This document shows positions 16,335-38,792 of a stretch of 64,000 nt of DNA, one piece after another; the first letter of the stretch is position 1, and the number at the start of each line of letters is the position of its first letter. A model generated the notes under the pieces. That model saw only the letters and a program-made list of their open reading frames with translations, did no database searches and had not been told where the DNA came from. The position numbers and the translations under genes were made by a program. The DNA is from Aphrocallistes beatrix (taxonomy: Eukaryota > Porifera > Hexactinellida > Sceptrulophora > Aphrocallistidae), in the NCBI GenBank assembly GCA_963281255.1, contig OY725499.1, positions 3,677,148 through 3,741,147 of the forward strand, written 5' to 3'.

Positions 16335-16371
16335 ATGTATCTGCTAATAATGAAATAATATTAAGATATAC

Positions 16372-16833
16372 ATGATGAACAATAGAAAAAGTAAAGACAA
16401 ATTGGGCTGCTTTTTATACTGTGGTTCTCTTTGTCTAGGGATCCCTTATATTGTTAATTTATCGACAGCGACTTTTTCACTCTCATTTTCACTTCCTTAT
16501 GTGCATAATTCCACACATAGTTATAGTCATGTAACTACAGTCGTAAGCAGCATTCTAACATCAATAAACATCACAATTTTTATGATGTTTATCTTGTGCC
16601 AGGCCAGTTATATTTCTTCCGCTCGAAAAAAACAGGCCGAAAAAAGTGCAGAAATTACGAGATTGGAGAGAATTATAAGTGGAAGACCACAACCAATACT
16701 AATCATACCACAGCATACTGACAATCAACCGCCGACCTATTCTGAAAATCAAGATGAACAAGGACGCCTGTTGACAAGAGACGCGCTGCCAAACTACCAA
16801 GCAACTGATACTGCATTCACAGCTAGTACTTAG
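16372..16833 (+). CDS. Family B1 membrane protein with PY and dileucine tail (153 aa)
   Basis: First and most complete member of the tandem family. Membrane segments are at about 12-40 and 54-77; the short loop between carries NST (a glycosylation site if luminal). A charged, helix-forming stretch at about 83-100 (QAEKSAEITRLERI) follows, then a tail with PPTY, EQGRLL and LPNY in that order. PPxY and LPxY are motifs bound by WW domains of NEDD4-family ubiquitin ligases. ExxxLL is the acidic dileucine signal for clathrin adaptors. I infer a ubiquitin- and endocytosis-regulated membrane protein or adaptor. A conserved promoter lies upstream, partly displaced by two transposons. Family not recognised. 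Confidence 0.75.
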   Translation: MMNNRKSKDKLGCFLYCGSLCLGIPYIVNLSTATFSLSFSLPYVHNSTHSYSHVTTVVSSILTSINITIFMMFILCQASYISSARKKQAEKSAEITRLERIISGRPQPILIIPQHTDNQPPTYSENQDEQGRLLTRDALPNYQATDTAFTAST

Positions 16834-17442
16834 TTGTAGTAACTAACTCAGAGAATAACGAGAACAACTCTTTTTTGAATGTGCATGTGTCTGTGTGTTA
16901 TGAACTCGATAAACTTTATACTATGATATCATGTCATATGCCATTATTACCCTACACGTATTGACTAAAGATGCGTGCAAGGAAGAATACTTGTCTTGTT
17001 AGAGAGTTTTATTAAACATTGATTGCGTAATGTTCTATACTGATAATTATAAAATAGTTCTTTAACTAAAAGTTTCTTGTCTAGCTATATGAAAAAAGGT
17101 ACACTAGAAAAATAGATACTTAGATTTACTATACTGGGCATGATCAATGAATTTACGTAATCGTATCATGCATTAGATAAACATCCCAGATAACAACAGC
17201 AAAATTCAAAAAGTCTGTATCTCTAAAACTCTGGAAAGAATGATCTGTATATTGGATCATAGTACAAGAAGTAACTTCCTGTGGGAGGAGTATAGGTGTG
17301 TCATATCACACTGTGTCATACACAAGCAAGCCCTTCATATGCAGCTTTCTAATTATCGTAAAATGTTCATACGTACGTATATATCACATTACTCACTGAT
17401 TATGCGTAACTAAGAAGTTATTGGGAATATTAAAAGTAGTCT

Positions 17443-17490
17443 TATCTGGTCTTACTCAAGACAGAAAATCAGATAAGGAGCATATATATG
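17443..17490 (+). promoter_or_regulatory. Family B1 core promoter, second arm decayed
   Basis: TATCTGGTC is present, but the mirror arm reads GACAGAAAATC, so the inverted repeat is broken here. AGATAAGG and the CATATATATG box at 17481-17490 remain. Confidence 0.55.
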
Positions 17491-17527
17491 TATCTACAAG
17501 CTATTAAATAATATTAAGATATACAAG

Positions 17528-17980
17528 ATGATTAATATAGAAAGTAAAAGAAACTATCTTTATTTTTCGCTCATTATTAATTTTGCATTGTTCCCTCCTG
17601 CTTTAGGTTTCATGGCATCACTTATGACATTGATAGTATTAACTCTAATAGTGCGGCCAAACGAAGATAGCATAAATTTGATAAGTTATAGCTCTTCATT
17701 AGTAAGCAGCACTCTAACAATAATAAACACCCTTGTAATTTTCGTGATTATCACGTATCAGGGCAAATATATTGACACTGCTCGAAATAAACAGACTGAA
17801 CAAAGTGCAGAAATTGAGAGATTGGAGAGAATAATAGATGCGAGACCACATCGTACCAACAATCAACCAGCGATCAATTCTGAAAATCCAAATGAACAAG
17901 AACGTCTGCTGATAAGGAACCGGACACCCAACTACCAAGCTACTATGGATGTTTCCTTAACAACTAGTAGCAGTAAATAA
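17528..17980 (+). CDS. Family B1 membrane protein (150 aa)
   Basis: Two membrane segments (about 13-40 and 55-78), then the conserved QTEQSAEIERLERI helix and a tail with EQERLL and PNYQA. The first PY motif of the paralogue at 16372 has become PAIN here, so only the dileucine and the terminal NY motif are left. The frame is intact, and it ends with a serine-rich tip. Promoter block at 17443. Confidence 0.75.
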   Translation: MINIESKRNYLYFSLIINFALFPPALGFMASLMTLIVLTLIVRPNEDSINLISYSSSLVSSTLTIINTLVIFVIITYQGKYIDTARNKQTEQSAEIERLERIIDARPHRTNNQPAINSENPNEQERLLIRNRTPNYQATMDVSLTTSSSK

Positions 17981-19031
17981 CTCAGACGAGTTAACGTGAA
18001 CAAGTTGTACTAGAAGAATAGCTACAGTTATGTATATGTATATATTAGTGTGTGTGTGGTTTAAACTGATAAACTTCGACTATGATGTCATATGCCATTA
18101 TTAACCTGTCGTATTAGCTAAAGATACTTAGGAATAATAGTCTTGTTACAGGTTTTATGGAGCACTGATTGGAAAGTTGATTTTAGTCTAGCTTAGCTTT
18201 CGCTGGTAGAGTTTCTATTTGGTGCTCTGTAAGAACTGATACTCTTGGTTTCTTAGGATTTACTACGAAAACCTCATTAAACGCGTTGTGTGGAATCCGC
18301 AACCGCCCATTCTCACTAACCTGAAGTTTTAGACTAATGTCCCACCTTCTCTACCTGTCTCCATTGCCTTGAGTTGAAATGAGGTGACTCATGTTGCTAT
18401 AGACAAAGCTAAAGCTCCACTTATCAAAATATTTTATTAAAATTATATATATGTATATATATATATAGTGTCAATGAGTTTAGCTTATTAGGTATTATCA
18501 ATGAACAGATTCATAGTTGTATACAAAAATAAGTAATACTATCTTATACCATAAACTTTTCTATATCCGAGAATACTTGATTTAATTTCATAAAATGATT
18601 CAATACTACAATATTTTTTAACATCCAAAACCTACTGTACTTAGATATACTATACTGGGATGATCAAGAGATTTGCAGAATTCATAACATGCATTTGATT
18701 CACATCTTAAAATAGAAACAAAAAAATAAAGTATGTATCTCTAAAACTTAGGAAGGAAGGAGTGCGTTCATGGTCAACCTGGTCTGTTATGTATCTTGGA
18801 TAACAGTCCCAATAGTATCTAAAGTACACTAAAAGTCAATGTCTGTCTCTTCCTGTGGGAGGAATATAGGTGTGGCATAGATCACACTGTTTCATAGCCA
18901 ATCAAGCCTTCCCTATGCAGCATTGTACGTAATAATCATAAAATGTTCATATCAGCGATATCACTACGCCTGATATATCACATTACTCACTGAGTATGTG
19001 TAACTAAGAATGGAATTATTAAAAGTAGTCT
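17981..19031. other. Family B spacer
   Basis: Copies of the B1 upstream blocks occupy about 18440-19030. The 18180-18430 part holds no recognised feature. This copy of the unit lacks the two transposons inserted at 14925-16226 and so serves as an empty-site control. Confidence 0.55.
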
Positions 19032-19080
19032 TATCTGGTCCTACTCAAGAACAGATAAGCAGACAAGGAGAATATATATG
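19032..19080 (+). promoter_or_regulatory. Family B1 core promoter
   Basis: TATCTGGTC, then AACAGATAAGCAGACAAGG and an AATATATATG box at 19071-19080. One forward GATA-type site is kept and the second is mutated (AGACAAGG). Confidence 0.55.
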
Positions 19081-19114
19081 TATCTGCTAACTATGAAATA
19101 ATATTAAGATATAC

Positions 19115-19549
19115 ATGATGATTAATATAGAAACTAAAAGAAAACTTTGCTATTTTTTAATCATTCTTCCTTGTGCATGGGTCCTGATTATGGTTGATGT
19201 TTCAACATCGTCGATAGCATTGGCAACTTCAAGTATGTTTCTGAATTCATCCACAGATTACTTTAGTACGTCAGCTTATATAACTTCTATTGTAAGCAGC
19301 AGTCTAACACTAATAAACATCCCAATTTTGATCACAGTTCCCTGGCTCCTGTCCTATTATGTTGACTCCGCTCGAAGAAAACAGGCTGAACAAAGTGCAG
19401 AAATTGAGAGATTGGAGAGAATTCTAAATGCAAGACCACATCCAGAACCAATCATACCACATCGTACTGACAATCAAACACCGATCCATCCTGAAAATCA
19501 AGATGAACAAGAACGCCTGCTGACAAGGAACCTGCAACCCAATGATTGA
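19115..19549 (+). CDS. Family B1 membrane protein, shortened tail (144 aa)
   Basis: Same plan as its neighbours: membrane segments at about 10-40 and 53-80, NSS sequon in the loop, helix QAEQSAEIERLERI, then EQERLL. The tail ends at QPND because a TGA follows. The sequence after the stop still encodes the family ending in frame (codons for a Thr-Ala-rich tip), so the last PY motif was lost by a recent nonsense change, and the tyrosine is already Asp. It is probably still a functional membrane protein with the dileucine signal only. Confidence 0.7.
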   Translation: MMINIETKRKLCYFLIILPCAWVLIMVDVSTSSIALATSSMFLNSSTDYFSTSAYITSIVSSSLTLINIPILITVPWLLSYYVDSARRKQAEQSAEIERLERILNARPHPEPIIPHRTDNQTPIHPENQDEQERLLTRNLQPND

Positions 19550-20059
19550 ACAGCTATTAATACTGCACTAGCAACTAGTGAACTAACTAACATAAATAGA
19601 CTATTTGAAGTGTAAATGCGGCGTATATAATATATGCTCTTGTACTTGTTGTTATATTTTTTGTGTTAATAACGAATAATACGTACGTACTCTTTTTCAA
19701 TAGATTTTTTTCTCGTCATCTAATAATTATACGGCAATGATTCGGTAAAGCGAATTCAAGTTAGTACTTGTTTCTGTTAATTCCAACCCTAGCATTTTAA
19801 CAAAATTGTCTCAGTCTTGTCTTAATTTCACACCTTTGGCGAATTCATCTCACGTAAACGAACGAATTTTTGAAAGATAATAGAAAAACTCAAATATTTA
19901 GTCCTTATTTTATTTGCTCTGGTATATATCACACTGTGCCATAGCCAAGCAAGTCCCTCCTATGCAGCCTTGTAAAATGTTCTAAATATACTTGTATATA
20001 TCACATTACTCACTGATTATGCGTAACTAAGAAGTTCATTGAATTATTAAAAGTAGTCC

Positions 20060-20108
20060 TATCTGGTCTTATTCAAGACCAGATAAGCAGATAAGGAGCA
20101 TATATATG
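20060..20108 (+). promoter_or_regulatory. Family B1 core promoter
   Basis: A perfect inverted repeat TATCTGGTC/GACCAGATA, then AAGCAGATAAGG and CATATATATG. Identical in layout to 16286-16334. Confidence 0.6.
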
Positions 20109-20142
20109 TATCTGCTAATTATGAAATAATATTAAGATATAC

Positions 20143-20508
20143 ATGCTGATTCATAGAGAAGGTGAAGGCAATTGTTGCCGCTTGTTATTCACTATTTGTT
20201 GTCCATCGATCCTTTTCATTGCTGGTTCTTCAGCGTCGTTGGTATCATTGACAATTTCAACTATTATCTTGGCAACATCGGCAGATAATAGTTTTGATGG
20301 TCCGTTTTATAATGGACCTGCAATTATAAGCAATATTCTAGGATTAATTATCCTTCCAATATTAGTCGCGGGTGTCTGGTACAAGGAGAAATATATTGCT
20401 ATCCTTCGAAAAGAGCAGGCTGAACAAAGTGCAGAAATTGCGAGATTGAAAATAAAAATAGATGCTCCACAGGCAGTACCAATCATGCCACAGCGTACTG
20501 ACAATTAA
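20143..20508 (+). pseudogene. Family B1 copy with premature stop before the tail
   Basis: The first 121 codons give two membrane segments and the QAEQSAEIARLKIKI helix. A TAA then stands where paralogues have Gln, just before the PATYSEN motif. A second TAA follows ten codons on, and the dileucine region is degenerate (GHLL). If translated, it would be a tail-less membrane protein unable to recruit the inferred WW-domain or clathrin partners. Its promoter is intact, so expression is possible. Pseudogene is the simpler reading. Confidence 0.7.
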
Positions 20509-20809
20509 CCAGCGACCTATTCTGAAAATCAAAATTAACAAGGACACCTGCTGACAAAGAAGCGAATGTTACAGATACCTTCTTCAAAACTAGCAGTAAC
20601 TAACCCAAATGAGTTAACGTAACAAACTTTACTGAGTTTGAATTACAAAATGTATGAATATTAGTGTGTGTATGTGTGTGTGTACAACTTAATAAACACT
20701 ATGATGCAAATGCCATTAGTACATATTGACTAGAGATGCGTGCAAGGAAGAATAATTCTCTTGTTAGATAGATTTATTGAACACTGATTGTGTAATTTTT
20801 AAGATTAAT

Positions 20810-21120
20810 CGGAATATGTCCTACGAAAATACTGGAATATGTCCTACAACCTCAATTCCGGAATATGTCCTACAAATTTTCTGATGTAGGAATATGTCTT
20901 ACACTAATTCCGGAATAGGTCCGATAATACCGATTTGTTTTCTTTTTCGAGTATTGATGTTATGATTTTAATTTTTATTAGTCCCCCTTTTCTAATTTCT
21001 TTACAAATATTTACATCAACAATGACACTTTGTGCATCTTTTATACTACGGAATCTATTTTTATAGTTCTGAATTTGAAATTCTGGACATTTTCCGATAT
21101 TTTCTTAGGACATATTCCGC
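20810..21120. repeat. Inverted-repeat element with tandem GGAATATGTCCTAC units
   Basis: Five imperfect copies of GGAATATGTCCTAC lie at about 20810-20925, spaced 19-36 bp apart. An inverted copy, TAGGACATATTCCG, closes the element at 21107-21120. The interior has no open frame of note. It is most likely a non-autonomous DNA element with iterated terminal sites. Confidence 0.6.
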
Positions 21121-22148
21121 TTTTCCATTTTTAATACCATTAATTATAGAGAGTAGTTTATAACTCTTTTTAGTGTGCTTCCTACATTATATTAATATTG
21201 TGCTGAATCTATAAAAACATTTGGACAGGATGCCTACTATTGAAATGAGTGATGATGACTTGAACTTTTGTGAAGGTTCGACTAATATATACAGCGCAAC
21301 CTTAATAATCACACTATATGTGGGAGTATCTGAGACAATTTTTGTCATTTTACATACATATAAATCTACCTCTTTAGGGGGACAAAGGGGTGCACTCTTA
21401 GGCCAACAATATCTCACACCATTAAATTAACATCAAAAGGGGGAATTGTATAATTTTGTGTTGTCAATAAAATGAAGGCCAACTGTAAAATTAAAACTCT
21501 AACATTTCATTGGTCGGCTAATTTGTAACATTTTGAGTTTGAAAATATGAATAATTCTCAAATCAGGCTAGAGAGTGATTCCAACTATAAAATTTTTATA
21601 GAGTGGTATAATCCCTATTAATGCCACTTTTACCTGGGGTATTTTCTATTTATAGTCTGGACCCAAATTTATATGGCTTCCCCGCCCAAAATGGCTTAAA
21701 CAGGAAATGATGCAACACATTCCTGGTATAGGTGGGGTTAAACTCCACGAGAGAAAATCTTAGCTATACTATACTGGGCATGATCAAGGGATTGACGTAC
21801 CATGCATTAGATTCACATCTCAAATAGCAATACGTAGTAAAAATTCAAGTCTGTCTAAAACTCTGGAAGGAATGAAGGGTCATTTATTGATGCTACTACG
21901 TATTTGGATTATAGTCCCAATAAGTAAGTATAAAATGCACATACTTAATGTATGTCTTTCTTGTGAGGGGAGTATAGGTGTGGTATAGATCACACTGTGT
22001 CATAGCCAAGTACGTGGGTATAGTCAGGATTTTGTAGGGGAGGCATAGCAACCAGTTGCACAAGCAATTCCTTCTTATGCAGCCTTTCTATATCACATTA
22101 CTCACTGATTATGCGTAACTAAAAAGTTAATAAAATTATTAGTAGTCT
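21121..22148. other. Spacer with repeat R1 and B1 upstream unit
   Basis: A plus frame at 21230-21430 (67 codons, one weak hydrophobic stretch) has no family or promoter support. R1 occupies 21617-21742. The B1 upstream unit starts near 21745 and runs to the promoter. Confidence 0.5.
21617..21742 (+). repeat. Dispersed repeat R1
   Basis: Nearly identical to 10956-11086 over about 125 bp. Confidence 0.75.
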
Positions 22149-22208
22149 TATCTGGCCTTACTCAAGACCAGATAAGCAGATTAAGGAGCATATATATATA
22201 TATATATA
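22149..22208 (+). promoter_or_regulatory. Family B1 core promoter with expanded TA tract
   Basis: TATCTGGCC/GACCAGATA has one mismatch, and AGCAGATTAAGG replaces the last GATA-type site. The TATA region has grown into a (TA)n run at 22189-22208. Confidence 0.55.
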
Positions 22209-22233
22209 ATTATGAAATAATAATTAGATACTG

Positions 22234-22698
22234 ATGTTGTTTTTTATAGAAAGTGACATTCGTTGCTACGAATTTCTCACTTTTATTTGTCCATGCATGG
22301 CTATCATTGTTGGTATATTGACATCGATGATATCATTGGGCATTTCAAGTACCGGTGCTCTTCTGAGTGATTCCACAACAAATATTTATAGTTTGACGAG
22401 TTATATATTTGGAATTGCAAGTAGCAGTCTAACAGCAATAAGCTACTTAATTTATGTCGCAGTTCTCTTGTCCCAGTCCTACCTTATGTATTCCGCTCTA
22501 GTAAAAAATGAGGAACAAAGTGCAGAAATTTCGAGATTGCACATAATTCTAAATTCAAGACAACAACCAATCATACCACAGCGTGCTAATAATCAACTAC
22601 CGACCCATTCTGAAAATGAAAATCAAGAACTCCTGGCGTCAAGGGATCGGCTACCCAATTACCGTGCTATTACGGCTACTTCCCCTATTAACCAATAG
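22234..22698 (+). CDS. Family B1 membrane protein (154 aa)
   Basis: The last B1 copy, more divergent. Membrane segments are at about 14-42 and 55-82. The helix EEQSAEISRLHIIL is kept. The tail has LPTH in place of the first PY motif, then ENQELL (ExxxLL) and LPNY. Thus dileucine and the terminal PY motif are conserved while the first PY is lost. Frame intact. A repeat R1 fragment lies downstream at 22935-23008; otherwise 22699-23380 holds nothing recognisable. Confidence 0.7.
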   Translation: MLFFIESDIRCYEFLTFICPCMAIIVGILTSMISLGISSTGALLSDSTTNIYSLTSYIFGIASSSLTAISYLIYVAVLLSQSYLMYSALVKNEEQSAEISRLHIILNSRQQPIIPQRANNQLPTHSENENQELLASRDRLPNYRAITATSPINQ

Positions 22699-23618
22699 TG
22701 ACTAACTCATATGAGTTACGTGAACAAACTACTGAATGAGTAAATACACTATACGTGCATAATGTGTGTAATAGTTGAGTTTTATCTTAGTTATATTTTA
22801 TGTTGAGTTATATTTTGGTTATATTTTATGTTTTCTTTTCTTAAATAGTAGTGTTGTTAATATTTACAACCATGTTAGTACGTACTGGGCCTATTAATAA
22901 TACTGGTTAATAGGGATTTGTATATATATAGTAACTGCACCAAACTTGTATGGCTACCCTAAAAATAACTTAAACCGGAAATGACGCAGCAAAATTCCTA
23001 GGCAACAAATTAATGCGTCTTCATTTCAAATTTTCTTTCCTCATCATCCAACAATTATATACCACATTGGAGCAAATTCCAGTTAGCAAGGGTTCAATTT
23101 TGTCCTGTTGTATGACATTTTTACTAGCTCTATTACTGATACCATGGATGTACACATACTAAGATAGATTTACTACCATGGCGATTATAACATAGTTCTA
23201 AATATTCAATTACTTGTTTGGGTTTAATTCCACTGTTAAAAACTGTATAGCATCAAAAGTTGCGTTCTCTACACCAAAAATGACAACACCTAATCCAAAC
23301 AAGTCATTGTGTGGATTCTGTGGAATGACTGAAGTCTTTAAAGACAAATGATTTTTATTCCCTGTTTATCTGTTAAGGAGGCAGGTGTGCTCCGTCATAC
23401 ACAATACCACGCCTGGTTCCTCCTTCTTACATCACTCAAGTATGATATTCTATACTAGACTGATATCATGTTACTCAATACTTATCTACAACTAAATCAA
23501 TGATAACTTAAGAATAAAGTATAGCATTATACGTAAATACTGGTCTTGTCTTGGTAATAAGATGTATTAGGAGTAGATGGTACTGTGAAAATAATATTTA
23601 AACATATCTACGTAGGTT

Positions 23619-24277
23619 ATGATGAGTAAAGAAAAATGTATGTTGTGCTCATGGTCCATCCTAATTCTCATTGATTATCTCAGCAGCAACTGCGGATGAA
23701 AAAATATACGATAAATAATATGGACGTATCTTCAGTAGTTTCCTCAATAAACAATGGCATATCATTCGTAATCAACTTAATTTTGGGCATCATCTTTACA
23801 TATATCTCTATTTTAGTAAAAAATAGGGTGAAGAAAGTGAGAGTTTCGAGATTGAAGAGGAATTCAGATGCTCCACAGAAGATAGGGACAATCCTCATTG
23901 TTTCAGTGATACTCCTCATTATGAGTATTGCAGTGTCGTGATTGTCACTGGCATCCTCAGCTATTGAAGTGAAATATTGGGTGAATAAAAATCAGACGAT
24001 TATCATAAACTGTTCTGATGGTGCATTCCTAGCTTCAGCAATAGTATCCATGGTGAATACTAATGTAGCATGGATGGTCAGCTTAAGCTTTTTTGTGTTT
24101 ATCTCCCTGGAGAACTTTTATATCCAATACTTATGGAAAAGACAGGGTATACAGTTAGTAGTAACGAGTCAACCAACGATCTATTCTGAACAATCCAATG
24201 AACAGGAACGCCTGCTGACAAGGGAACGGCTACCCAATGATCAAGCAGGTACTGAGACTGCATTAGCGACTTGCTAG
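23619..24277 (+). pseudogene. Chimeric family B pseudogene (B2 front, B3 back)
   Basis: The leader and first codons (from ATG 23619/23622, MSKEKC) match the B2 genes at 25580 and 29594. That frame hits a TGA after about 25 codons, and a B2-like segment resumes in another frame from about 23696 (SSVVSSINNGISFVINLIL, then the basic helix). After DAPQ the sequence switches to the start of a B3 protein (KIGTIL, SSAIEVKYW) and continues to the B3 tail with EQERLL and LPND. A TGA at 23939-23941 interrupts the B3 part. It looks like an unequal crossover between two subfamilies, then decay. Confidence 0.75.
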
Positions 24278-24767
24278 TAGAACTAACTGAGAATGATAAG
24301 AACAAACTCGAGTGAATGCGTAAAAGACATTATAAGCGTAGAATATATGTACTTGAATTGTTGAGTTTGGTTATATTTTTTGTTTAATTATTATTGTTAA
24401 GTTGCCATTTACAGCATATAACTCGGTTACTGGTTATATTAATGACGAGTAATATCTAATTTTCTTCAATATAATTTTTCTTATCATATAATAATGATAT
24501 ATAACTGATACGGTAAAGTGTATTCCAGCTACGTATTAGTAGGAATTTCTTTGTTTCCATACTGGATTGCATTGATTTATGCTCAGTACAATGAAGCTCA
24601 GAAAGATAAAGTGATTCGATAATATTTGCATTGTGAAGTCCTGAGAAAGATGTTATCCTAAGAAACTAATATTTATATCTAATAGTACACTTTGAAACCT
24701 GACAGCACAAATATTCCCCTACCTCTTAACCTCTGGAAGTCAAGAGTGTTTACGACTAGGCGCCAGT

Positions 24768-25090
24768 ACTTAGTATAGATCATGCGCGCTTCGCTTGCTA
24801 CTCGGTTGGAGCCCGCATGAGTCGCGTCCTCTAGGTGCCCGTGCTAATCAATAATGATAGCCTAAGTCAGATAAACACAAACAAAATGAATATAGTATTA
24901 TGATGGGACAGCCTGCATCACTTTCAGTCATTACAGTGATTATCAACTGCTATACACGTACAGTTAATTTCAATGTGATCCTCTATATAAGATTTATAAA
25001 TGACAGAAAAACAGGTAATTGGTTTGTTAACATGTGCCAACCATTTTTCACCCTCAAAAATATAAGTATGCATTGAAATGTCTCTTTGAC
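24768..25090 (+). repeat. Dispersed repeat R2
   Basis: A GC-rich head (GCGCGCTTCGCTTGCT, CCCGCATGAGTCGC) with an AT-rich body. Related copies lie at 26262-26530 and 49690-50010. SINE-like in size, but I cannot show a tRNA-derived promoter. The rest of 24278-25107 has no gene. Confidence 0.6.
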
Positions 25091-25579: not shown

Positions 25580-26053
25580 ATGCAAGAGTCGTACATACAG
25601 CTCACTTTAATAGTCTCATTTCTTTTTTGGATGATGCATTTTGGCCTATCGTTATCCTCATGGATATTATCAGGATTTACTGCATATGAAAACATTTTTA
25701 GCATAAACAAGACCAATTTTGATTACAGGACCCGCAAAACGATAAATTGTACTAATATGCATGAATCTGCAGTAGTTTCCGCAATAAACAGCAGTCTATC
25801 ATTCGTAATCAACATCATTCTGTACATTATTGCTGGGATACTCTGTTACTATATTCTTAATTTTGTGAATGAACAGGATGAAGAAAAAGGTGCAAACGTT
25901 GTGAGTTTGAAGAAAAATGTATATGCTCCACATCGAGCTAACAATCAAACATCGGTATATTCTGAAAATCCAAACGAACAAGGACGCCTGCTGACAGGGG
26001 ACCAGCTATCGAAATACCAAACTGTTACTGACACTCCATCTGGGGCTAGCTAG
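25580..26053 (+). CDS. Family B2 membrane protein (157 aa)
   Basis: Membrane segments are at about 8-38 and 70-98. The loop between is longer than in B1 and includes INCT, conserved in B2. A basic stretch ending SLKKN precedes the tail SVYSENPNEQGRLL and SKYQTV. The dileucine fits ExxxLL; both PY motifs are altered (SVYS, LSKY). I place the start at ATG 25580. The upstream leader (TATAACATTATAAATA near 25494) is shared with 29594. Confidence 0.7.
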   Translation: MQESYIQLTLIVSFLFWMMHFGLSLSSWILSGFTAYENIFSINKTNFDYRTRKTINCTNMHESAVVSAINSSLSFVINIILYIIAGILCYYILNFVNEQDEEKGANVVSLKKNVYAPHRANNQTSVYSENPNEQGRLLTGDQLSKYQTVTDTPSGAS

Positions 26054-26261
26054 TATTAGCTAACTAACTCAGATGAGTAAACTAGATCGGATGTATATTA
26101 TATTTAGTATATATGTGCGGTTGTGTGACTTATTTTTATTTTGAATTCGGAGTTGTTAAATCCCCTTTTACGGAACTGTAACTGTAAGTTTTACTATGTA
26201 AATAATCTTTATGTAAATAATCCTCTGTGATTGAAAATATTTTAAAATTAATCTGATACAG

Positions 26262-26530: not shown

Positions 26531-26619
26531 TCAGTCTTAAAGTAATATGTTCTCCTATCTATATTGTGTGCGTCATATTCAATGCTAAAATACTCGACAC
26601 TTATTGTTGATTTGGTACT

Positions 26620-27468: not shown

Positions 27469-27849
27469 ATGAGTAATCGGAAAAGGCAATGGAACATAGG
27501 GATCATTCTTACAGTTTCAGCGATACTCTTAGCTATAAGTATTGTTGCGTCGTGGGGAACATTGGTATCTTCAGCTATTGAAGTGAATTATTGGATGAAT
27601 TTAAATCGGACGAATATCACAGACTGTTCTAGAAATCCTGGTATATTCTCAGCGGCAGGAATAGTATTCATGGTGAATAGTAATGTAGCATGGATATTCA
27701 GCTTATACCTTTTTGTGTTTATCTGCATAGAGAGCTTCTATATCATAGATTTCTGGAAAAAACAGGGTACACAGCAAGCAGTAAAGTATCAACCAACGAC
27801 ATATCCTGAAAATCAAGATGAACAAGAACGCCTGGTGATAAGGGACTAA
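27469..27849 (+). CDS. Family B3 membrane protein (126 aa)
   Basis: B3 is shorter: first membrane segment at about 9-37, ectodomain loop with EVNYWMN, NRTN and DCS, second membrane segment at about 66-93. The tail ends right after EQERLV. The sequence beyond the stop (ctacct) still recalls the LPND codons of paralogues, so the terminal motif was removed by a stop. NRTN is a possible glycosylation site. The dileucine has become LV. Frame intact, with a leader shared with 31584. Confidence 0.7.
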   Translation: MSNRKRQWNIGIILTVSAILLAISIVASWGTLVSSAIEVNYWMNLNRTNITDCSRNPGIFSAAGIVFMVNSNVAWIFSLYLFVFICIESFYIIDFWKKQGTQQAVKYQPTTYPENQDEQERLVIRD

Positions 27850-29593: not shown

Positions 29594-30037
29594 ATGAGTC
29601 AGGATGGGTGTAAGCTGTTCGTTTTAATTATTTCATTAACTGTTTGGGGTATTTACCTTATGCTAACGATACTCTCATTCTCATTCTCAGGACCTAGTTC
29701 GAATGATAGGACATATTCCAAGAAAACTAATACGATAAACTGTACTGATAGTCATGCGTCTCCAGTAGTTTCTATGATAAGCAACGGTATATCTTTCATA
29801 ATCAACATAATACTGTTCATTATTGTCGTGATACTCCTTTACTTTGTTTTTGTATTTTGGGAGAAACATGAACAAAGTGTAAGAATCGCGAGTTTGAAGA
29901 AAAATGTAGCTCCACAGCGAGTCAACAATCAAACATCGACACATTCTGAAAATCCAAAAGAACAAAGACGCCTCCTAACAGAAGACCAGCTGCTAAATTA
30001 CCAAGCTGTTACTGACACTCCATCTGGGACTAGCTAG
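29594..30037 (+). CDS. Family B2 membrane protein (147 aa)
   Basis: Paralogue of 25580. Membrane segments are at about 8-33 and 58-90. The loop has INCTDSHAS. A basic SLKKN stretch precedes the tail SENPKEQRRLL and LLNYQAV. ExxxLL is intact; the terminal PY motif reads LLNY. The upstream unit starts near 29125 (GGATGGGAGAATAGATCTG) and matches 25115 onwards. Frame intact. Confidence 0.7.
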   Translation: MSQDGCKLFVLIISLTVWGIYLMLTILSFSFSGPSSNDRTYSKKTNTINCTDSHASPVVSMISNGISFIINIILFIIVVILLYFVFVFWEKHEQSVRIASLKKNVAPQRVNNQTSTHSENPKEQRRLLTEDQLLNYQAVTDTPSGTS

Positions 30038-30359
30038 AGTAACTGACTCAGAAGAGTTAACATGAACAAACTAGAGCAGATGTAGTAGTATATTGTATAG
30101 AGTATGTGCGTGACTGTTAAATTTTAATTCGGAATTGTTAAATCACCTTTTACAGACCTGTAACTATTAAGTATTTTTGTAAATAATCCCATCCCTATAA
30201 CTGAAGATATTTCCAAATTAATCTGATAAAAGCGTACTTGTCAGTAACTTTTGGTAAAACGCCAAAAAGGTATTTAGAAATGTATTTTTATCAGAAATGT
30301 CAAACTGGTCGGTTAATTTTGAATCCTCACTATTAAAACCCGATTAATGTTTGTACATA

Positions 30360-30855
30360 CAGGTAAACCTCCCAAAGCGGCACCCATCGGGAGAATGATT
30401 TTGTGCCGCTTCTCGGAGGTTGCCGTTACTCGGAGATTGCTCGTATACACCCTTAATATATTATTCAAAAGCTAAAATAGCATATATTGATACTAATACA
30501 GTAGTAATCGGTTATAAGAACATCGGTTATATGAATCTAAATTAATATGGATGATATGTTATAAATATGTATATATTTTAACTTCTTATTTGAAACGTTC
30601 TTAAAGAATGGCATGTATATGAGTGATTGTTACATATACATCTGATTGGTGCCGTATCTCGGAGGTCATTTTATATTAAAAATTTCAATCGGGAGTTCAC
30701 TTAACTGCCGTATGTCAGAGGTTGCCGTTACTCGGAGGTGCCGTTACTCAGAGGTTGAAGAAGTACTATTAGTATAGGAAAATCAATCGGTGGAATGGGA
30801 TGATACCGCTTCTCGGAGAGTTGCCGCTACTCGGAGGTGCCGCTTTGGGAGGTAT
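30360..30855. mobile_element. TIR element with repeated CGGAGGTTGCCG units
   Basis: The left CAGGTAAACCTCCCAAAGCG is mirrored by CGCTTTGGGAGGT at the right, which is slightly eroded. Repeated TCTCGGAGGTTGCCGTTACT-like blocks lie inside both ends. A pogo-like non-autonomous element by style. Confidence 0.65.
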
Positions 30856-30876
30856 ATACATATATATATATATATA

Positions 30877-31230
30877 CAAGCGTGCTTCGCTTGCTCGCTG
30901 CGCGGCTGGCGGACACTTTGTGTCTGCGGTCACATCGATTAATTATAAGGTAGATAACATCTCTAAAACGTCTGTTCTACTGATAATTATAATCGATATC
31001 GCTCGAAAAATCACCAAATTTGTCAATTTTTAAAATTTTGATGCGTCATAATGACGCCATAACAGTGATGAGTTTTTGATGATAGCTGCGTCATATGTGA
31101 GGTATATTAATTAATATACAGTGACACATTCATTAAAATTTCGCCTTTATCACGTAAAATGGCTGAGTCATTGTCGAAAAACTGAAATTTCTAATTATAA
31201 AAAAAGTGACAATGACATTTAAATAATAGC
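30877..31230 (+). repeat. Dispersed repeat R3
   Basis: Head CAAGCGTGCTTCGCTTGCT and GGCGGACACTTTGTGTC, body with AATCACCAAATTTGTCAATT and GTGACAATGAC. A longer copy is at 32163-32565, and an inverted body at about 48360-48560. The head is shared with R2. It adjoins a (TA)n tract at about 30855-30876. Confidence 0.65.
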
Positions 31231-31259
31231 CATTCTACATACAAGTATTTTCCATAACA

Positions 31260-31413
31260 TAGTAGAACCTCGTTAATAGGAACACCAGGGAACGGTCCAA
31301 ATTTGTTCGTATTAATTTGGGATTCACTGGTGTGATTTACATGTATTTTCCTCCGTAGGAGATTAACATTTTGTTTGTACTATCCAGAGTTTCGTATTAG
31401 CAAGGTTCTATTG
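31260..31413. mobile_element. Short pogo-like MITE
   Basis: TAGTAGAACCTCGTTAATAG on the left and an inverted AGCAAGGTTCTATTG on the right. Confidence 0.6.
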
Positions 31414-31583
31414 AAATTAGTATTACTAGTGTAGCATACTAAAAATAAATATTATATGACTACAAGTATTAACTATATCAGGTAACGCATCCATTATGTA
31501 TAACTTAGAGTGCTGTTAATGATATATATATATGCCTGATCTTACTATAAATTACACAAAGCATTAGGAGCATATATAGAACC

Positions 31584-31997
31584 ATGATCAAAATAATATA
31601 TCTCAAGGTGAGGAATTGGAAATTGAAATTGAACATAGGGACCATTCTTACAGTTTCAGCGATACTCCTTATTATAAGCATCGTTGGGTCCTCTGTGTCA
31701 TTGACTTCCTCTGCTAATGAAGTGGAATATTGGTTGAATAGAAACCAGACGAATTACACAAACTCAAACTGTATTGATACGACTGATAGTTTTCTATTGG
31801 GAGCAAAAATGTCCATGGTGATTACTAATATAGCATGGATACTCAGCTCAAGTTTTTTCGTGTGTATCTGCATAGAGAGCTTCTACATCCTACATTTAGG
31901 GAAAAGACAGGGTAGTACACAGCCAGTAGTAAAGAGTCAACCAACGCCCTATCTTGAAAATCAAGATGAACAAGAACGCCTGCTGATGAGGGACTAG
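31584..31997 (+). CDS. Family B3 membrane protein (137 aa)
   Basis: Paralogue of 27469: membrane segments at about 16-43 and 76-100, loop with EVEYWLNRNQTNYTNSNC (sequons NQT and NYT), tail with PTPYLEN and EQERLL, ending MRD. A TAG then precedes in-frame codons for LPNDQA and a Thr/Ala-rich tip. Thus the terminal module exists in DNA but is not translated unless the stop is read through. Frame otherwise intact. Confidence 0.7.
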   Translation: MIKIIYLKVRNWKLKLNIGTILTVSAILLIISIVGSSVSLTSSANEVEYWLNRNQTNYTNSNCIDTTDSFLLGAKMSMVITNIAWILSSSFFVCICIESFYILHLGKRQGSTQPVVKSQPTPYLENQDEQERLLMRD

Positions 31998-32162
31998 CTA
32001 CCCAATGATCAAGCAGCTACTGGAACAGCATTAGCGACTAGCTAGTAGAACTAACTCAGATGAGTTAACATTAACAAACTCTATTGAAAGTGTAAATATG
32101 TGTAGAATATAGATTCTTGTATTTGTTGAGTTATATTTTAAGTTATACAATTAATTATAGGG

Positions 32163-32565
32163 TATACAAGCGCGCTTCGCTTGCTTGCGCTGCGCGGCTG
32201 GCAGACATTTTGTGTCCGCCGGAGGCTCCCTTCGGTCGCCTGGGGTCACATTGGTTAATTATAAGGGATATATCATCTCTAAATATGTCTATCTTAGTGT
32301 TAAAATCGATATCACTCGAAAAATCACCAAATTTGTCAATTTTAAAATTTTTGATGCGTAATGATGACGTCATAACAGAGTGATTAGTCATCATTTTTGA
32401 TGGTAGTTATATCATATGTGAGGTATATTAATGTGCACATTCTATTAAAATTTCAGCCTTCTATCTCCTATAATGGCTGAGTTATGCTCGAATAACTGCA
32501 TTGCTTAACTTTTTAAAATGTGACAATGACGTCATAATTCCATGATGAGTCGACATTTTTATCTG
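32163..32565 (+). repeat. Dispersed repeat R3
   Basis: Longer copy of 30877-31230, with an extra CCGGAGGCTCCCTTCGGTCG insertion in the head. The following stretch, 32566-33140, has no gene or repeat I can name. Confidence 0.65.
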
Positions 32566-33200
32566 AGGTCAGAACTTAGTGGAGCCATAGCTAAAATACT
32601 CCCACATGCCAAAAATCAGCTTTCTGTGACCAGCAGTTTCTTCGGTCAATTCGTTACAGTTTTAGGCTGGGAATAAATTGTTTTTAAAATACTAGTATGC
32701 TAACACTTTTGTCCCATTTTTAGGGGGCGAAGATTGGGAAAAATCCACTATAAGTGGCATAATTACTTTTTATCACAGGTTATTGTACTGAAGACCTCCC
32801 ATCTACTTCATCATACATAAATTCTTAATTATTTGATCGTGAATTGATCGTATTCCACGAATTCAAAAAGAATATCACCAAATTCCTTTTTAGCCATTTT
32901 CAAGGTGAAAATATAGCAGGTAGATACTCGTAGATTTAACGATAATTTTTCTACCAGCATTTTATTGTCAATCTACATTTAAAATCTCTGAGAGATATAA
33001 AATCAATTCCTACCAACATCACATAGTCAACTAATAGGACAAATGCGTACTAAATCAACTCTGTACTAATACCTAATAGTACTCGCTTTATCGAGTATCG
33101 CTTACAGGAATACTATATGTAGAAAGGAAAACTAGATATGCACTGTGGCACTAAAAGATCAATGTTTATACTGTAACAGTCACTCAAATACAGCATAATT

Positions 33201-33508
33201 ATGGTAAACATGGCAAACCGCGACTTGATCTACGGATTCTCCTGTATCTGCTGTGTACCTGTGATTACTTCGGTTATTAGTATAATGGGTTCATTTCTAC
33301 CTGAATGACTGAAATTATCACAACAGATAATTCCACTTTAAAACCATGTTTATATGTGCTAGTGGTACATTCTAAGGTCCATTCTGTGCGATCAGTGATT
33401 TTAGGCTCATCGTGCATGAACTCAATCGTCTATTGCCGCATTACTACAATTCTACGAATCTTAGAAAGAGAGTTGATTCAGGATTCACATTGTGAGATTG
33501 TGAGATAA
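33201..33508 (+). pseudogene. Degraded family C copy
   Basis: The leader AGATATGCACTGTGG and the ACAGTcACT block before it match the leader of the gene at 34172. From ATG 33201/33210 the frame gives a short polar start and one membrane segment (CVPVITSVISIMGS), in the same place as in 34172, then a TGA at 33306-33308. Another frame is open to 33508, but only faint similarity remains. A decayed duplicate. Confidence 0.65.
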
Positions 33509-33590
33509 AATAAATTCTTAAAAACGCAAGAATGTATATTACAAATATAATTTTGAAACCTATAATTATAACACTGAGTTGAAGGTTTCA

Positions 33591-33689
33591 TCAGGTGGTG
33601 TGCTGCACATACACGTATGCGTAGACTCAGTCGCGTGGATAAATGAAGAGAATTTTAGGCATATGGCTTGAAAATCTGGATGAAACCTG
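33591..33689. mobile_element. Short hAT-like MITE
   Basis: Ends AGGTTTCATC and CTGGATGAAACCTG are inverted and match the ends of 28481-28704. Beyond it, 33690-34130 has only AT-rich sequence. Confidence 0.5.
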
Positions 33690-34171
33690 TATTACAACAT
33701 TTATAAGCTTTTTACTAATTGAACAAAATAAAGAGAAAGATTAAATAACAAGAAAAATTATGTAGCAATGGTTGATTGTGTAATTACACGTATGTGACTA
33801 TTTGAATATTAAAATTCGATGGTATTCAATTCATGCTTGCATATAACTAGGTCACATTTCTTCGCATAAAATAATTTGCGTGACAATAGATAATTATGTA
33901 ATAGGCCAATGCTAATACATCTCAAATTAGGAAAACTTATCTACCTAGACTGATATTTCCCTACCAATAGACTGTATGTAAATCCCCCCCAGGTAAATTA
34001 CCTCCTGTAGTGAAACTGCTGCCCATATGAAGTAACAGCACTATATCAGTTAACGTCCCTTATAGGTATTGCTACTTCTAAACTATAAAAGAGAAAGCTA
34101 GATATGCACTGTGGAGCTAGAAGATATATTTTAACATTATAACAGTTCACTTGACACAGCTATTCTACAGC

Positions 34172-34681
34172 ATGGCGAAGACTACACTCCGATGCAGGAT
34201 CTACACATTCTACTGTCTCTTCTTCCCACTCTTGATTATCTCCGTCATCTGTATCGTAGGTTCAATACCGGTTTATTTGCATCAGTTTAGAGCAGCTTTG
34301 GTTTGCCCAACAGAAGATCGAGAGCAAAGTTACGAAACAGAGTACTCATCCCCGAATGAACTATGCAAATACTTCATTTTCAGTGGACTTCTCAACGCTA
34401 TCCTCACGTTACTCCTGATTGCATGCTGTTGCCTCACATGCCCATTCATCTGGTACTTGATGAACATCGTCACTAAACGTCAAATCGGTATGCACTATTC
34501 ATCGAATGGATACAGTGCACATGAACGCATGGGAGACTCCTGGCAGTATGCAGAGAACTTCCTACCTTCATACTCCACAGCTGCAAGGATGGGGAACGAA
34601 GAGGGACTGCTTAACAGTATGGTACCGCATGGTCGAACTTATGATAACTCAATGACAGCAGATGGTTACAGTGTAGCGTAG
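34172..34681 (+). CDS. Family C two-span membrane protein with LPSY tail (169 aa)
   Basis: Short basic N-terminus, membrane segment at about 10-36, loop of about 35 residues with one cysteine pair candidate, second membrane segment at about 66-96 rich in cysteine (ACCCLTCP). The tail of about 75 residues has LPSYSTA and then NEEGLL. The order PY-like motif, then leucine pair is the same as in families B and D, although the residue four before the leucines is Asn rather than acidic. I chose ATG 34172, the first ATG of the frame. TATAAAAG at about 34084 may be its TATA box. Function unknown. Confidence 0.7.
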   Translation: MAKTTLRCRIYTFYCLFFPLLIISVICIVGSIPVYLHQFRAALVCPTEDREQSYETEYSSPNELCKYFIFSGLLNAILTLLLIACCCLTCPFIWYLMNIVTKRQIGMHYSSNGYSAHERMGDSWQYAENFLPSYSTAARMGNEEGLLNSMVPHGRTYDNSMTADGYSVA

Positions 34682-36607
34682 ATCTTGAGAAGAATATAAG
34701 ATCTCATTTGTAAATGATGTGAGTATTTTAATATTGTAAGTACGTCTAACATATTTTTGATTTAAATGAGTACATTAGAGGCAGCAATTGTGGATATGAT
34801 GCCCGTTTATTATGAATAAAACGTTTGATCCCAAAGCTTATATTAGGATGGAGATATGCCACAACTTGATAAGTTCATTTTACATACACGTATAGGCATA
34901 TGGGGATTTCTTAATGTAGAACAGAACAGTGATATACATCGGGTAAAGAAATTATATGAACACAGAATTAGAAATGGCAATATTGCTGGTCAGTAGAATC
35001 ATAGGTAGTTCCGTTCTGATTGTCGGCGCAGTACTCAAACACAAATGCGCCATTGCATACATCCCAACCGTTTTTTCACTTTCTAAACTAATTTTCGCGA
35101 GTGTCCCGCTTTTAGATGAAATTCACCCATTATGTCCCGATCTTTATAATTCCATGTACAATACTTCTCTATTGCGTCCCGCTTTACCAAAGCTCAAGTG
35201 GGAATGTATGCGATTGACAATCCAAAATCTGCGTTCGAATTGTTGGAAAGACTCGTTGAAACGAATGTCGCGCTATAAGTAGGTTAGGATGAGGGATATT
35301 ATAATATAATAATATAAACAACTATCTATATAATTAAAACTCAAATATTGTATGTATGTTTGTTTGTCTAGACGTCTGGAACAATTGACAAGGTTTAGAA
35401 ATAATAACCTGGGTTACGCATAAATAATATTAATACCTAGTCTAGAGCAGCTGCTCCCCTTTCACTTTCCACTTCCTCGACCACCAACAGCGTACTTAGA
35501 AACATAGAAAAGTATAAACTTTAGGCAAAGTCGATACTCGAGCGGCCGATCGAGAATTTTCGATCGGTACCCGACCCGTCCGGACCAGTTCCGGGAGCGT
35601 AGACTTGGAGTGGGGATTGATAGGGCCTCTGGCTACGACTCACAATTGGTAGGCCATTGCATAGGCCTCGGAGCCGGTCCGGCGGCCGCCGAACTAATGT
35701 TTACGCCAAGTTACTTCAAAGTCACATTAGTGCTTACTATCGAAGCGTTGTTAAGATTTAATGTACGAAATGTTACATGTATTTTGTCATTTTATCGAGA
35801 AGTATATACTAATTTCGATGAATCTGGCCATATTATACAATAGATGTTGTCAGCTTCCAGGGGAAAAGCCCCTAGACCCCACTGAGGGACTTTCAGCACC
35901 CACAGACCCCCAGTTTGATGCCCCCCCGTCAGTAAAATCCTTGGTTACGCCGGATCAATGCCCTGCTTTGGGCTACGACTCACGATTAGTAGGGGCATTT
36001 TCGGACGATTTGCAGTTTGGTCAGTAGAAGATTGGTGGGTCATGGCCCTTCCAACCCTACGTCCATGGATTCCATATATGGTCATGTCTGCTAAATATTA
36101 TGAAATGGTGTTAATAGATCTATTTTGCTTACATAATCCCACTTTTTAAAAATAACTATTATTCGTAGAGACAGTACGGCTCTGTTTAGTCTGCTACCTC
36201 CACACTGAGGGATATAATACATCCTCAATACAGATATCATACTGCACTAGACACAAATAATATCATTCTAGCCAGACTGATCATGTTTCACGTTGAAGTG
36301 GGTAACCAGCTTAGTTTAGGCACATACTTGATTAGTAGCATAAATAATCCCAAATCTTATTTTGAGGTAATTGAATATTTCTATATTTAAAAGTAGTAAT
36401 TCTGTCAATATAATATTCAACAAATTCGTTGCGTATGTGGAAGCCATTATTAAATATTACATTAATTGATTTGAATGTAATTTCCAGGATTTTATAACAA
36501 AATGTAATGTAAATTATTCTGAAGCCTTGAAATTAGCTTAGCTAAGAGATAGAAATTGGAGGGGAATTTATTATGCTTAGAATTCTTCTAATTAGATCCA
36601 TTAAGAG
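34682..36607. other. Intergenic, with a possible Helitron-like stretch
   Basis: A frame at 34956-35282 (108 codons) has no family support. From about 35325 (TCTATATAATTAAAACTC, as at the 5' ends of some Helitron-related elements) to about 36090 the sequence is GC-richer, with GGCTACGACTCAC at 35630 and again at 35970. This is suggestive only. 36160-36600 is AT-rich with nothing found. Confidence 0.4.
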
Positions 36608-37066
36608 ATGTGTTGCTGTTCCCCACAAATACGCCTCTTCCTCTTCGCCTGTGTGTTCGGTCTGCTAACCATCTTAATCACACTCACAATCATCTCGGGT
36701 CTCTACCTATTCATTCTCTCCTGGTCCGAGTACTGTCAGACGATACCTACCACTTGTAGTCAGTGCGAAACAATCAGAATCAACTGCAAGTACCTCATCG
36801 CTTCAACATCTCTCCTGACAGGCCAATCTGTGTTGGTTATATTCTGTTTCTATAGCATGGTCTGCTTCTATGTCTCAATAAGACGAGGCCGAAGTCGATC
36901 TGTCCTAGACAGAGACTCAACTCCTGATCTTCCTGGCCCGTTAATAATGGCGCAGACGGCGAGACCTCCTACCTCCGGGCTACCCCCCTACTCAGAGACT
37001 GCTGGGGACACCGAAGCTCTCATTCGGCCCAGACAGCCTCCCAACTATGAAGACATTACTAATTAA
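36608..37066 (+). CDS. Family D membrane protein with two PY motifs and dileucine (152 aa)
   Basis: N-terminus MCCCS, membrane segment at about 9-37, loop with cysteines in TTCSQC and INC, second membrane segment at about 60-88, then a basic stop-transfer (RRGRSRS). The tail reads LPPYSE, then DTEALI, then PPNYED at the very end. PPNY is a textbook WW-domain ligand; DxxxLI is an acidic dileucine. This is the clearest version of the tail shared with family B (PPTY, ExxxLL, LPNY). I infer regulation by NEDD4-type ligases and clathrin adaptors, as for small PY-containing adaptors in other animals. Codon use is GC-richer than in family B. Confidence 0.75.
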   Translation: MCCCSPQIRLFLFACVFGLLTILITLTIISGLYLFILSWSEYCQTIPTTCSQCETIRINCKYLIASTSLLTGQSVLVIFCFYSMVCFYVSIRRGRSRSVLDRDSTPDLPGPLIMAQTARPPTSGLPPYSETAGDTEALIRPRQPPNYEDITN

Positions 37067-37180
37067 AACTTTTTCTGTCATAAGTTTTTAATGCATGATT
37101 TTAATATATTAATAAACTTCCATGCTAATCCACCCGTCTCAAAGTCTCGCAGTTTAGATGTTAAATCGAGTATTCATCAT

Positions 37181-37450
37181 CAGTAGCGGATTTAGGAGTG
37201 TGCGGCCGCACAGGGCCCCCACATTTTCGGGCCCCCCACAAATTGACATAAATTATATGCACTTGTTTTTCTAATGAAATACTCTCACTAATATGAATAT
37301 TGTATGCAGCAAATCTGATTTTTCATTTTCATTTCAAAATTTTAATAAAATTATAATAATAAATATAATCATTTTAAAAAAAATAATTAGATGTCAGGGC
37401 CCCCACAATCGCACTCGCACAGGGCCCCCACATTCCTAAATCCGGCACTG
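37181..37450. mobile_element. hAT-type MITE
   Basis: Ends CAGTAGCGGATTTAGGAGTG and CATTCCTAAATCCGGCACTG are inverted. An exact 8-bp duplication TTCATCAT flanks it (37173-37180 and 37451-37458). Subterminal CAGGGCCCCCACA repeats lie inside both ends. It sits between two convergent family D genes. Confidence 0.9.
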
Positions 37451-37732
37451 TTCATCATATCATGTCGATTTCAATTACCGTAATTTGGCTTGAACAATGA
37501 TGGAAATTTCTAGGTTTGAAAGTTCAGAATTTGCTTTACGGAAAATGTAAATTCAGAATAATTGAATTCTCTCAGAATTGAAAGATCCGAATATTTGTAA
37601 AAGTAGATACGACGATTTAATAAAATTCAGCATATTATTATTCTATATTACATCCTGTAGAGGGTCAATAACTCGACAGAGTTTCAAGACAATCTAAGAC
37701 TATGGGAGTGAGTGAGTTGAAGTTTGAAGAGA

Positions 37733-38194
37733 TTAATTGGTTGATGCAGATTCCTCATAGTTGGGAGGTGGGGCCCTCCCCGTGATGAGTCTCTCTCTCT
37801 CAGTCGCTACGGCGGAGTAAGTGGGCAAGCCGGATGACTGAGACCGCGCCGGCCGTATCACATCCCCAGAAACGGTTCCGCCCGCTTCTCTCTGTCTCTG
37901 TCTCTGGGACAAGATTGCACGCCTGTGTCTATATCTGCACGTTACAAGGCCTGAATAGAGTATGACTATTAGTATGAGCTCTGAGAGTAGTATAATGGAC
38001 AGAGATGTAGATGCGTCCAGAATATTGAGTAGTGAGGAGTCGTCAGCCAAAACCTGAGTACTGTACTGAGGTCGAACAGACCAGTAGAGCACGCACACCA
38101 CGAGTTCCACAATCACCGTTATGAATAACAGCACTAACGTCAGGGCCAAACCCGTTAGGAGTATGAGGAACCAGATCTTAGCAGAAGTGCACAT
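37733..38194 (-). CDS. Family D membrane protein (153 aa)
   Basis: Membrane segments are at about 7-39 and 56-84, followed by an arginine-rich juxtamembrane region. The tail has LPTYSA, ERERLI (ExxxLI) and PPPNYEES close to the C-terminus. The spacing of the three motifs matches the convergent paralogue at 36608. No N-terminal cysteine cluster beyond MCTS. Start ATG 38194. It is in tandem with 38352 on the same strand. Confidence 0.75.
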   Translation of the reverse strand: MCTSAKIWFLILLTGLALTLVLLFITVIVELVVCVLYWSVRPQYSTQVLADDSSLLNILDASTSLSIILLSELILIVILYSGLVTCRYRHRRAILSQRQRQREAGGTVSGDVIRPARSQSSGLPTYSAVATERERLITGRAPPPNYEESASTN

Positions 38195-38351
38195 TCCTTC
38201 TAATTACGTCAATACAAGCAAGCATTATAAGGCAGGAATTCGGGATATTATTTTGTAAGTAAAAGACTGGGAAAAAACAAAATAATATTTATTTGAAAAG
38301 TAAAAAGGTGAATTTGAAGAATAATGATCTGCTATTAAAAAGTGAATGTCA

Positions 38352-38792
38352 TTATGAATCAGCGGGACTGTTCGTGTTCTCTACAATGACGTCCAAATAG
38401 GCGGGGGGTCCGGATGTCTCTTCCGCTGCATAGGAAGGCAGACTGTTCGAGCTCAGGACGCTATCTCGTACTGAACCTCGCGTGCGTCTCCGACGATTGT
38501 GGCTAACTCGATTCGCTATTACCCTCTTCAAATTCTCAATTTTGTACTCTGACTGTTGAAGGGAAATCATCAGGCCGCCGGACAATGCAATGAAGATGAT
38601 CAACCCAATTGTTGACATCATCAGCACGAAGGTGACAAGATATTTCCATATTTCGTTACTGCAACTCAATCCAGTCCAGACTGAGTAGAGGTAGGCCAGC
38701 TCGGCGGGGACGCAACAAATCGTCCAAATTACGAGAAAAGAAAACACTGCGACTGAAGTGCAGAACCTACAAGTGCGGCTGCAGAAGGTCAT
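38352..38792 (-). CDS. Family D-like membrane protein, PY motifs without dileucine (146 aa)
   Basis: Cysteine-rich start (TFCSRTCRFC), membrane segments at about 12-36 and 48-74, a basic region with RRRRTR, and a tail with LPSYAAEE and GPPAYLDV. The two PY motifs are only about ten residues apart, and the dileucine between them is missing, so the motif set is reduced compared with 37733. Start ATG 38792. Function unknown; tail binding to WW domains is inferred. Confidence 0.7.
   Translation of the reverse strand: MTFCSRTCRFCTSVAVFSFLVIWTICCVPAELAYLYSVWTGLSCSNEIWKYLVTFVLMMSTIGLIIFIALSGGLMISLQQSEYKIENLKRVIANRVSHNRRRRTRGSVRDSVLSSNSLPSYAAEETSGPPAYLDVIVENTNSPADS

Follow-up and report, generated by a model that had tools for sequence, protein, structure and literature searches.

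Small membrane proteins encoded in a 64,000-nucleotide window of the genome of the glass sponge Aphrocallistes beatrix (C13:3677148-3741147; the genome searched comprises 100.5 Mb in 28 contigs) carry sorting motifs in their C-terminal tails, and the locus raises the question of whether these tails descend from one ancestor, arose separately or are held alike by selection. PPxY (PY) motifs bind WW domains of NEDD4-type ligases, and [DE]xxxL[LI] acidic dileucines bind clathrin adaptors. An earlier note on this DNA had described a PY, dileucine, PY triplet in three proteins of at least two families, B and D here, and had offered either deep ancestry or selection for one trafficking and ubiquitination code as its cause. 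The full triplet is encoded by three genes of the segment between positions 16372 and 38792:

16372..16833, plus strand: family B gene 16372, 153 amino acids in a single frame, alone among the B copies in having the full triplet; PPTY 16729-16740 (residue 120), EQGRLL 16756-16773 (residue 129), LPNY 16786-16797 (residue 139)
36608..37066, plus strand: family D gene 36608, full triplet; LPPY 36980-36991 (residue 125), DTEALI 37007-37024 (residue 134), PPNY 37037-37048 (residue 144)
37733..38194, minus strand: family D gene 37733, full triplet; LPTY 37817-37828 (residue 123), ERERLI 37784-37801 (residue 132), PPNY 37757-37768 (residue 143)

Translation and tail shuffles bear out the triplet in all three proteins, and the common order and spacing claimed for it hold as well, with 9 residues from PY to dileucine in each protein and 19, 19 and 20 residues from PY to PY in 16372, 36608 and 37733, respectively. 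In 200,000 shuffles per tail, the motifs came out in this order 0, 2 and 0 times for the three proteins; the shuffles treated each tail by itself, while the triplet was picked out among about 50 open reading frames (ORFs) of the window, and the margin is still large enough for chance to be ruled out as its origin. An [LP]PxY motif occurs in 7 of the 50 window ORFs that start with ATG and have at least 80 amino acids, six of them proteins of this segment and the seventh (29687-29944) running antisense to the family B gene 29594. Two further genes encode two-span proteins with PY motifs:

34172..34681, plus strand: family C protein 34172, 169 amino acids, two hydrophobic spans; LPSY 34562-34573
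38352..38792, minus strand: two-span protein 38352; LPSY 38430-38441, PPAY 38397-38408, no dileucine

The LPSY and leucine pair reported earlier for family C are present, the pair lacking an acidic residue at position -4.

Profiles of six B and three D-type proteins matched at 93%, over 39 tail columns only. The tails alone gave a B-D score of 25.7 (81.9%), and the heads alone matched at 3.4%, in agreement with the description of the membrane parts as unlike. None of 200 free column shuffles reached 25.7 (maximum 12.1), nor did any of 200 shuffles in which the nine motif columns were held fixed (maximum 21.5). Because 16372 has intact motifs and by itself matches D, the comparison was repeated without it, giving a score of 25.2 that again none of 200 motif-fixed shuffles attained (maximum 20.1). 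The likeness of B and D tails therefore exceeds the motifs and is independent of 16372. With the D side restricted to 36608 and 37733 the match is weaker, at 71.2% with 16372 and 64.3% without, and ORFs with one to four spans outside families B, C and D match D at 3.0% at most. These comparisons support the view that the tails of B and D are related by descent from one ancestral tail, and with it the ancestry half of the earlier proposal.

Under convergence, by contrast, the motifs would have arisen separately in unrelated two-span proteins, favored by the sorting machinery, and the tails would not be homologous. The dissimilar membrane parts of B and D fit such an origin, as do the joining of the same kinds of motif in LAPTM tails (PMC3214061) and the acidic dileucines in other families of the window (ERTPLV in 11795, DRTPLI in 46893). 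Most single B copies also fail to match D, with 16372 at 59.0% and the others at 0.3-8.4%. However, the B-D tail likeness beats all 200 motif-fixed shuffles in both versions of the comparison, and the motif-bearing genes are physical neighbors; we consider convergence unlikely, if a serious rival. An alternative is that the tail moved between unrelated genes, and the lack of homology between B and D heads leaves room for such a transfer.

The single-copy comparisons count against common ancestry of the tail. The very shallow alignments on which the hhalign E-values rest also tell against the reading favored below, as does the small size of family D, which consists of two proteins proper, 36608 and 37733. 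As a firm third member of D, 38352 was weakened by an hhalign match of 4.3% to 36608 and 37733 when used alone and by BLAST matches to them in the tail only (E 0.019 and 0.097), and its membership is doubtful. With 38352 aligned, PY residues make up 6 of the 12 invariant columns, weak evidence because the alignment of 38352 may itself be driven by the PY residues. For the membrane part of C, the match to D is 38.9% when the profile includes 38352 and 12.7% when it does not, a drop that weakens C as a clear relative of D and leaves the kinship uncertain.

Family B forms a tandem array in which 16372 is followed by these copies:

17528..17980, plus strand: family B gene 17528; PAIN at the first PY site, EQERLL kept, TPNY at the second PY site
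19115..19549, plus strand: family B gene 19115; EQERLL kept, stop directly after QPND
20143..20508, plus strand: family B gene 20143; stop before the first PY site, downstream tail remnant with another stop
22234..22698, plus strand: family B gene 22234; LPTH, ENQELL, LPNY
23696..24277, plus strand: incomplete 25559-type copy that leads, across one in-frame stop, into a 27469-type copy (23942)
25580..26053, plus strand: 25559-type family B copy, diverged head; TSVY, EQGRLL, LSKY
27469..27849, plus strand: 27469-type family B copy; PTTY, EQERLV, stop before the second PY site
29594..30037, plus strand: family B gene 29594, 25559 type; TSTH, EQRRLL, LLNY
31584..31997, plus strand: family B gene 31584, 27469 type; PTPY, EQERLL, stop before the second PY site

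The copies were said to keep the dileucine and to have degraded PY motifs, and the counts agree: a strict dileucine stands in 8 of 9 scorable tails (the exception being EQERLV in 27469), a strict first PY in 1 of 9 and a strict second PY in 2 of the 7 tails long enough to include that site. The full triplet is found in 1 of the 9 scorable copies, the tenth, 20143, ending before the first PY site. Early stops occur in 4 of the 10 copies. Between 23696 and 31997 the copy types alternate three times, a 25559 type followed by a 27469 type, the first pair being run together; the alternation suggests duplication of a two-gene unit. A 160-base stretch is common to the upstream regions of 16372, 17528, 19115, 20143 and 22234, with a divergence of 0.13-0.24:

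16212..16371, plus strand: conserved upstream region of 16372; an inverted repeat, imperfect, around TATCTGGTC..GACCAGATA, followed by AGATAAG and by an AT-rich run

The repeat is degraded upstream of 17528, and the stretch looks like a shared putative promoter with paired binding sites.

Over the membrane part of five B copies, the ratio of nonsynonymous to synonymous rates (dN/dS, omega) was 1.84 (likelihood-ratio test statistic [LRT] 9.98, p 0.0016; 1.83 over gap-free columns), with the second span at 3.05 (p 0.0048). Neither the loop by itself (p 0.31) nor the N-terminal part (p 0.09) reached significance. When each copy was left out in turn, omega ranged from 1.60 to 2.13 and the LRT from 4.7 to 10.65. 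In neutral simulations with realignment, 0 of 100 reached an omega of 1.84 and 3 of 100 reached the LRT with omega above 1. Upstream non-coding divergence over the five copies is below head dN, which is 0.45-0.67 over four copies. We regard these results as suggestive, not proof, of diversifying selection on the membrane part.

The omega values of the membrane part and its second span, their absence from the neutral simulations as regards 1.84, and the low upstream divergence would also suit an arms-race or self/non-self array, with the membrane part as working surface and a tail that sets only location and turnover. Against such an array stand the null simulations that attain the LRT, its fall to 4.7 when 16372 is removed, the use of five copies only, the non-significant loop and N-terminal part, and the head ratios of the later types (1.11 for 25559/29594, 1.04 for 27469/31584); we judge it distinctly unlikely. 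At the opposite extreme, B could be a functionless, decaying tandem array, with the D genes alone of importance. The early stops, the fusion of one copy to the remains of another and a tail omega of about 1 point that way, whereas the membrane-part omega above 1, heads that remain open in the copies used and upstream regions that are still alike do not, and we hold decay of the whole array to be very improbable.

For the tail codons of B, five copies, of which four extend as far as the motifs, gave an omega of 0.91 (p 0.75), and nine copies gave 1.18, with a log-likelihood (lnL) of -458.20 against -458.38 at omega 1. By codon class it was 0.75 for the dileucine, 1.70 for PY and 1.11 elsewhere, and the gain of 1.53 lnL units for two parameters in this three-class fit is not significant. 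Pairwise ratios ranged from 0.36 to 1.95, and some pairs do look constrained; the tail segments are short and power is low. In family D, 36608 and 37733 are identical at 17 of 29 tail and 32 of 117 head positions, and synonymous sites between them are near or at saturation. Eight of their nine motif positions are identical, the ninth being D versus E; outside the motifs, 9 of 20 tail positions are (Fisher p 0.03). The other half of the earlier proposal, selection for a single code throughout the locus, thus has moderate support from the 36608/37733 pair and none from family B, where dN/dS at the motif codons, the check the earlier note had named, gave a near-neutral tail, with stops in 4 of 10 copies.

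Taken together, we favor, at about even confidence, a reading in which the two-span proteins would be small membrane adaptors or self-regulated cargo of NEDD4/WWP-type ligases and B a side branch that lost PY and diversified. One ancestral PY-dileucine-PY tail would have passed down to families B and D. The PY pair of 36608, 37733 and perhaps 16372 would recruit a WW-HECT ligase of the NEDD4/WWP/ITCH type and the dileucine an adaptor protein (AP) complex. The protein would then be ubiquitinated, together with any partner that its membrane hairpin holds, and delivered to endosomes and lysosomes in the manner of LAPTM4 and Commissureless. Family B would have expanded locally in tandem, most of its copies losing PY and keeping the dileucine while the membrane part diversified; it would largely have lost ligase binding. 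The tail by itself fits adaptor and cargo alike. A more specific version, which we think quite improbable, makes the locus a modular set of degradation adaptors: the diversifying hairpin would pick the partner, the inherited tail would pass that partner on to AP adaptors and a ligase resembling WWP/ITCH, and many copies would have switched from PY-directed degradation to dileucine-only sorting.

Candidate readers of such a code are present in the genome. Profile searches gave 22 WW matches and 27 HECT matches, of which many are individual exons of one gene. One HECT exon, on contig C20, was compared with solved structures and most resembles WWP1, WWP2 and ITCH (best E 1.8e-182); upstream of this exon, on its strand, are four WW matches. 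On C18, WW matches lie a few kb upstream of HECT pieces, also on the same strand. Of two pattern scans for WW, one found none and the other 2 of the 4 C20 domains; the profile search is the better evidence. The family of AP small subunits has 9 matches, two of them adjoining on C14. A genome search for NDFIP, run without a positive control, found nothing.

Several features of the data tell against the adaptor reading. No strong purifying selection on B tail codons was found over five or nine copies, and because of this the motifs may be idle in family B. Conservation was judged from paralogues of this one genome. The WW matches of C20 are 17-43 kb away from its HECT exon, and all are read as separate pieces. 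Finally, the hydropathy scan gives one span only in 16372 and 23942, and 25559, 23942 and C have lysine and arginine counts at odds with the topology that we infer, in which both termini are cytoplasmic. That topology follows the 20 residues past the last span, which are richer in lysine and arginine than the loop in 11 of 14 proteins; the scan gave at most two hydrophobic stretches per protein. The structure models of 16372 (mean predicted local distance difference test [pLDDT] 64.3, predicted template modeling score [pTM] 0.33) and 37733 (mean pLDDT 70.6, pTM 0.41) each have two long helices and a low-confidence tail, consistent with a helical hairpin whose tail is disordered, and nothing further is to be read from them.

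Known adaptors differ from these proteins in architecture. LAPTM proteins have four to five spans and Commissureless a single one; NDFIP1/2 (Pfam NEDD4_Bsd2), membrane adaptors of NEDD4 ligases, have three spans and N-terminal PY motifs, and the span number of TMEM127 also differs from that of the two-span proteins here. The two helices of the 16372 and 37733 models are thus unlike LAPTM. A Pfam-A scan at E 10 took 10 of the 14 proteins (all except 19115, 20143, 23942 and 29594), and among these ten none matched LAPTM (Pfam Mtp), NEDD4_Bsd2 or Commissureless/PRRG4, and nothing lay above a curated cut-off. The match of 37733 to WBP1/VOPP1 (Pfam WBP-1) was weak (E 0.35, 12 bits against a cut-off of 28.1), and that of 31584 to Flu_M2 (E 9e-5, below the curated cut-off) was taken as a hydrophobic-helix artefact. 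The combination of PY and acidic dileucine in a C-terminal tail, as in LAPTM, is found in 16372, 36608 and 37733. LAPTM4A/4B and LAPTM5 are lysosomal membrane proteins that join L/PPxY, [DE]xxxL[LI] and YxxPhi motifs in their C-terminal tails, and LAPTM4 uses its PY motifs to bind Nedd4 (PMC3214061). Drosophila Commissureless carries PPCY/LPSY, and the portion of its description available shows no dileucine between PY motifs (PMC12101832). TMEM127, likened here by described function alone, is reported to be a WWP2 adaptor that another protein, one with two spans, binds inside the membrane (PMC9182567).

The tail type is therefore already known, from PY and dileucine tails in mammals and from PY pairs on small fly membrane adaptors, and the pattern of change in the gene family is the more interesting part. 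If the adaptor reading is true, the cluster would allow tests of how membrane adaptors of ubiquitin ligases arise and are re-aimed, and of whether such a system operates in glass sponges in the first place. Our literature search found nothing joining two-transmembrane PPxY/dileucine proteins with a tandem array and positive selection, and we make no wider claim; among the matches listed for Hexactinellida with NEDD4, PPxY, dileucine or allorecognition there was no sponge paper.

The module looks local to this locus, within the limits of searches with protein queries, which rank only the best candidates and read no introns. The 16372 protein returned 10 places, every one in this segment, on one contig and within 16 kb; its tail returned the same 10 genes, and the 31584 protein 3 places, all in the segment. 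The 36608 and 37733 proteins recovered each other, neither recovered 38352, and the 37733 tail recovered only 37733 and 36608. Because these queries return places in this segment, apart from one weak match on C9 (E 1.26) in the searches with the 36608 and 37733 proteins, the module appears local; across six protein queries, with best candidates scored only, no spread through the genome was found. The gene family has no match in the collections searched here. Viral relatives were also considered, and of 12 (37733) and 19 (16372) pattern matches in scans of viral contigs none was confirmed. No RNA families or tRNAs were reported within the window.

The single-frame ORFs of the locus are plausible as complete genes, because genes with a single exon are numerous in glass sponges: two species are credited with 12,409 and 9,872 transcripts of this kind (PMC10282587). 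The mitochondrial contig C28 (17,996 bases) has atp9, plus atp6, cox3, nad2, nad5 and nad1 in order, the gene names being read off translations except for COX1, which was found by search. Of 16 AGA codons in COX1, none aligns to arginine and 5 align to serine in the best solved match, and 7 of 9 CGN codons align to arginine there. Hexactinellid mitochondria are described as reading AGR as serine, retaining atp9 and having the same gene block (PMC2267718), and by its mitochondrial code and gene order this genome is taken to be that of a glass sponge.

The window also holds other small membrane proteins. The multi-span proteins 51016, 52292, 57858, 60155, 62531 and 63281 have a near-identical core (RALKCTLLIIFNLFLLACTIGLLVPFILYL in most) and variable ends, a conservation pattern opposite to that of family B. 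Proteins 871, 2225, 3956 (a partial ORF), 9234, 46893 and 48959 have two spans and a larger loop with recurrent cysteines, and the motifs DRTPLI in 46893 and ERTPLV in the separate protein 11795 are classic-looking acidic dileucines. Animal-type features of the window are fragments that look mariner-like and reverse-transcriptase-like and, at 4542-8480, an ABCC4-like transporter of 1312 amino acids in one unbroken frame.

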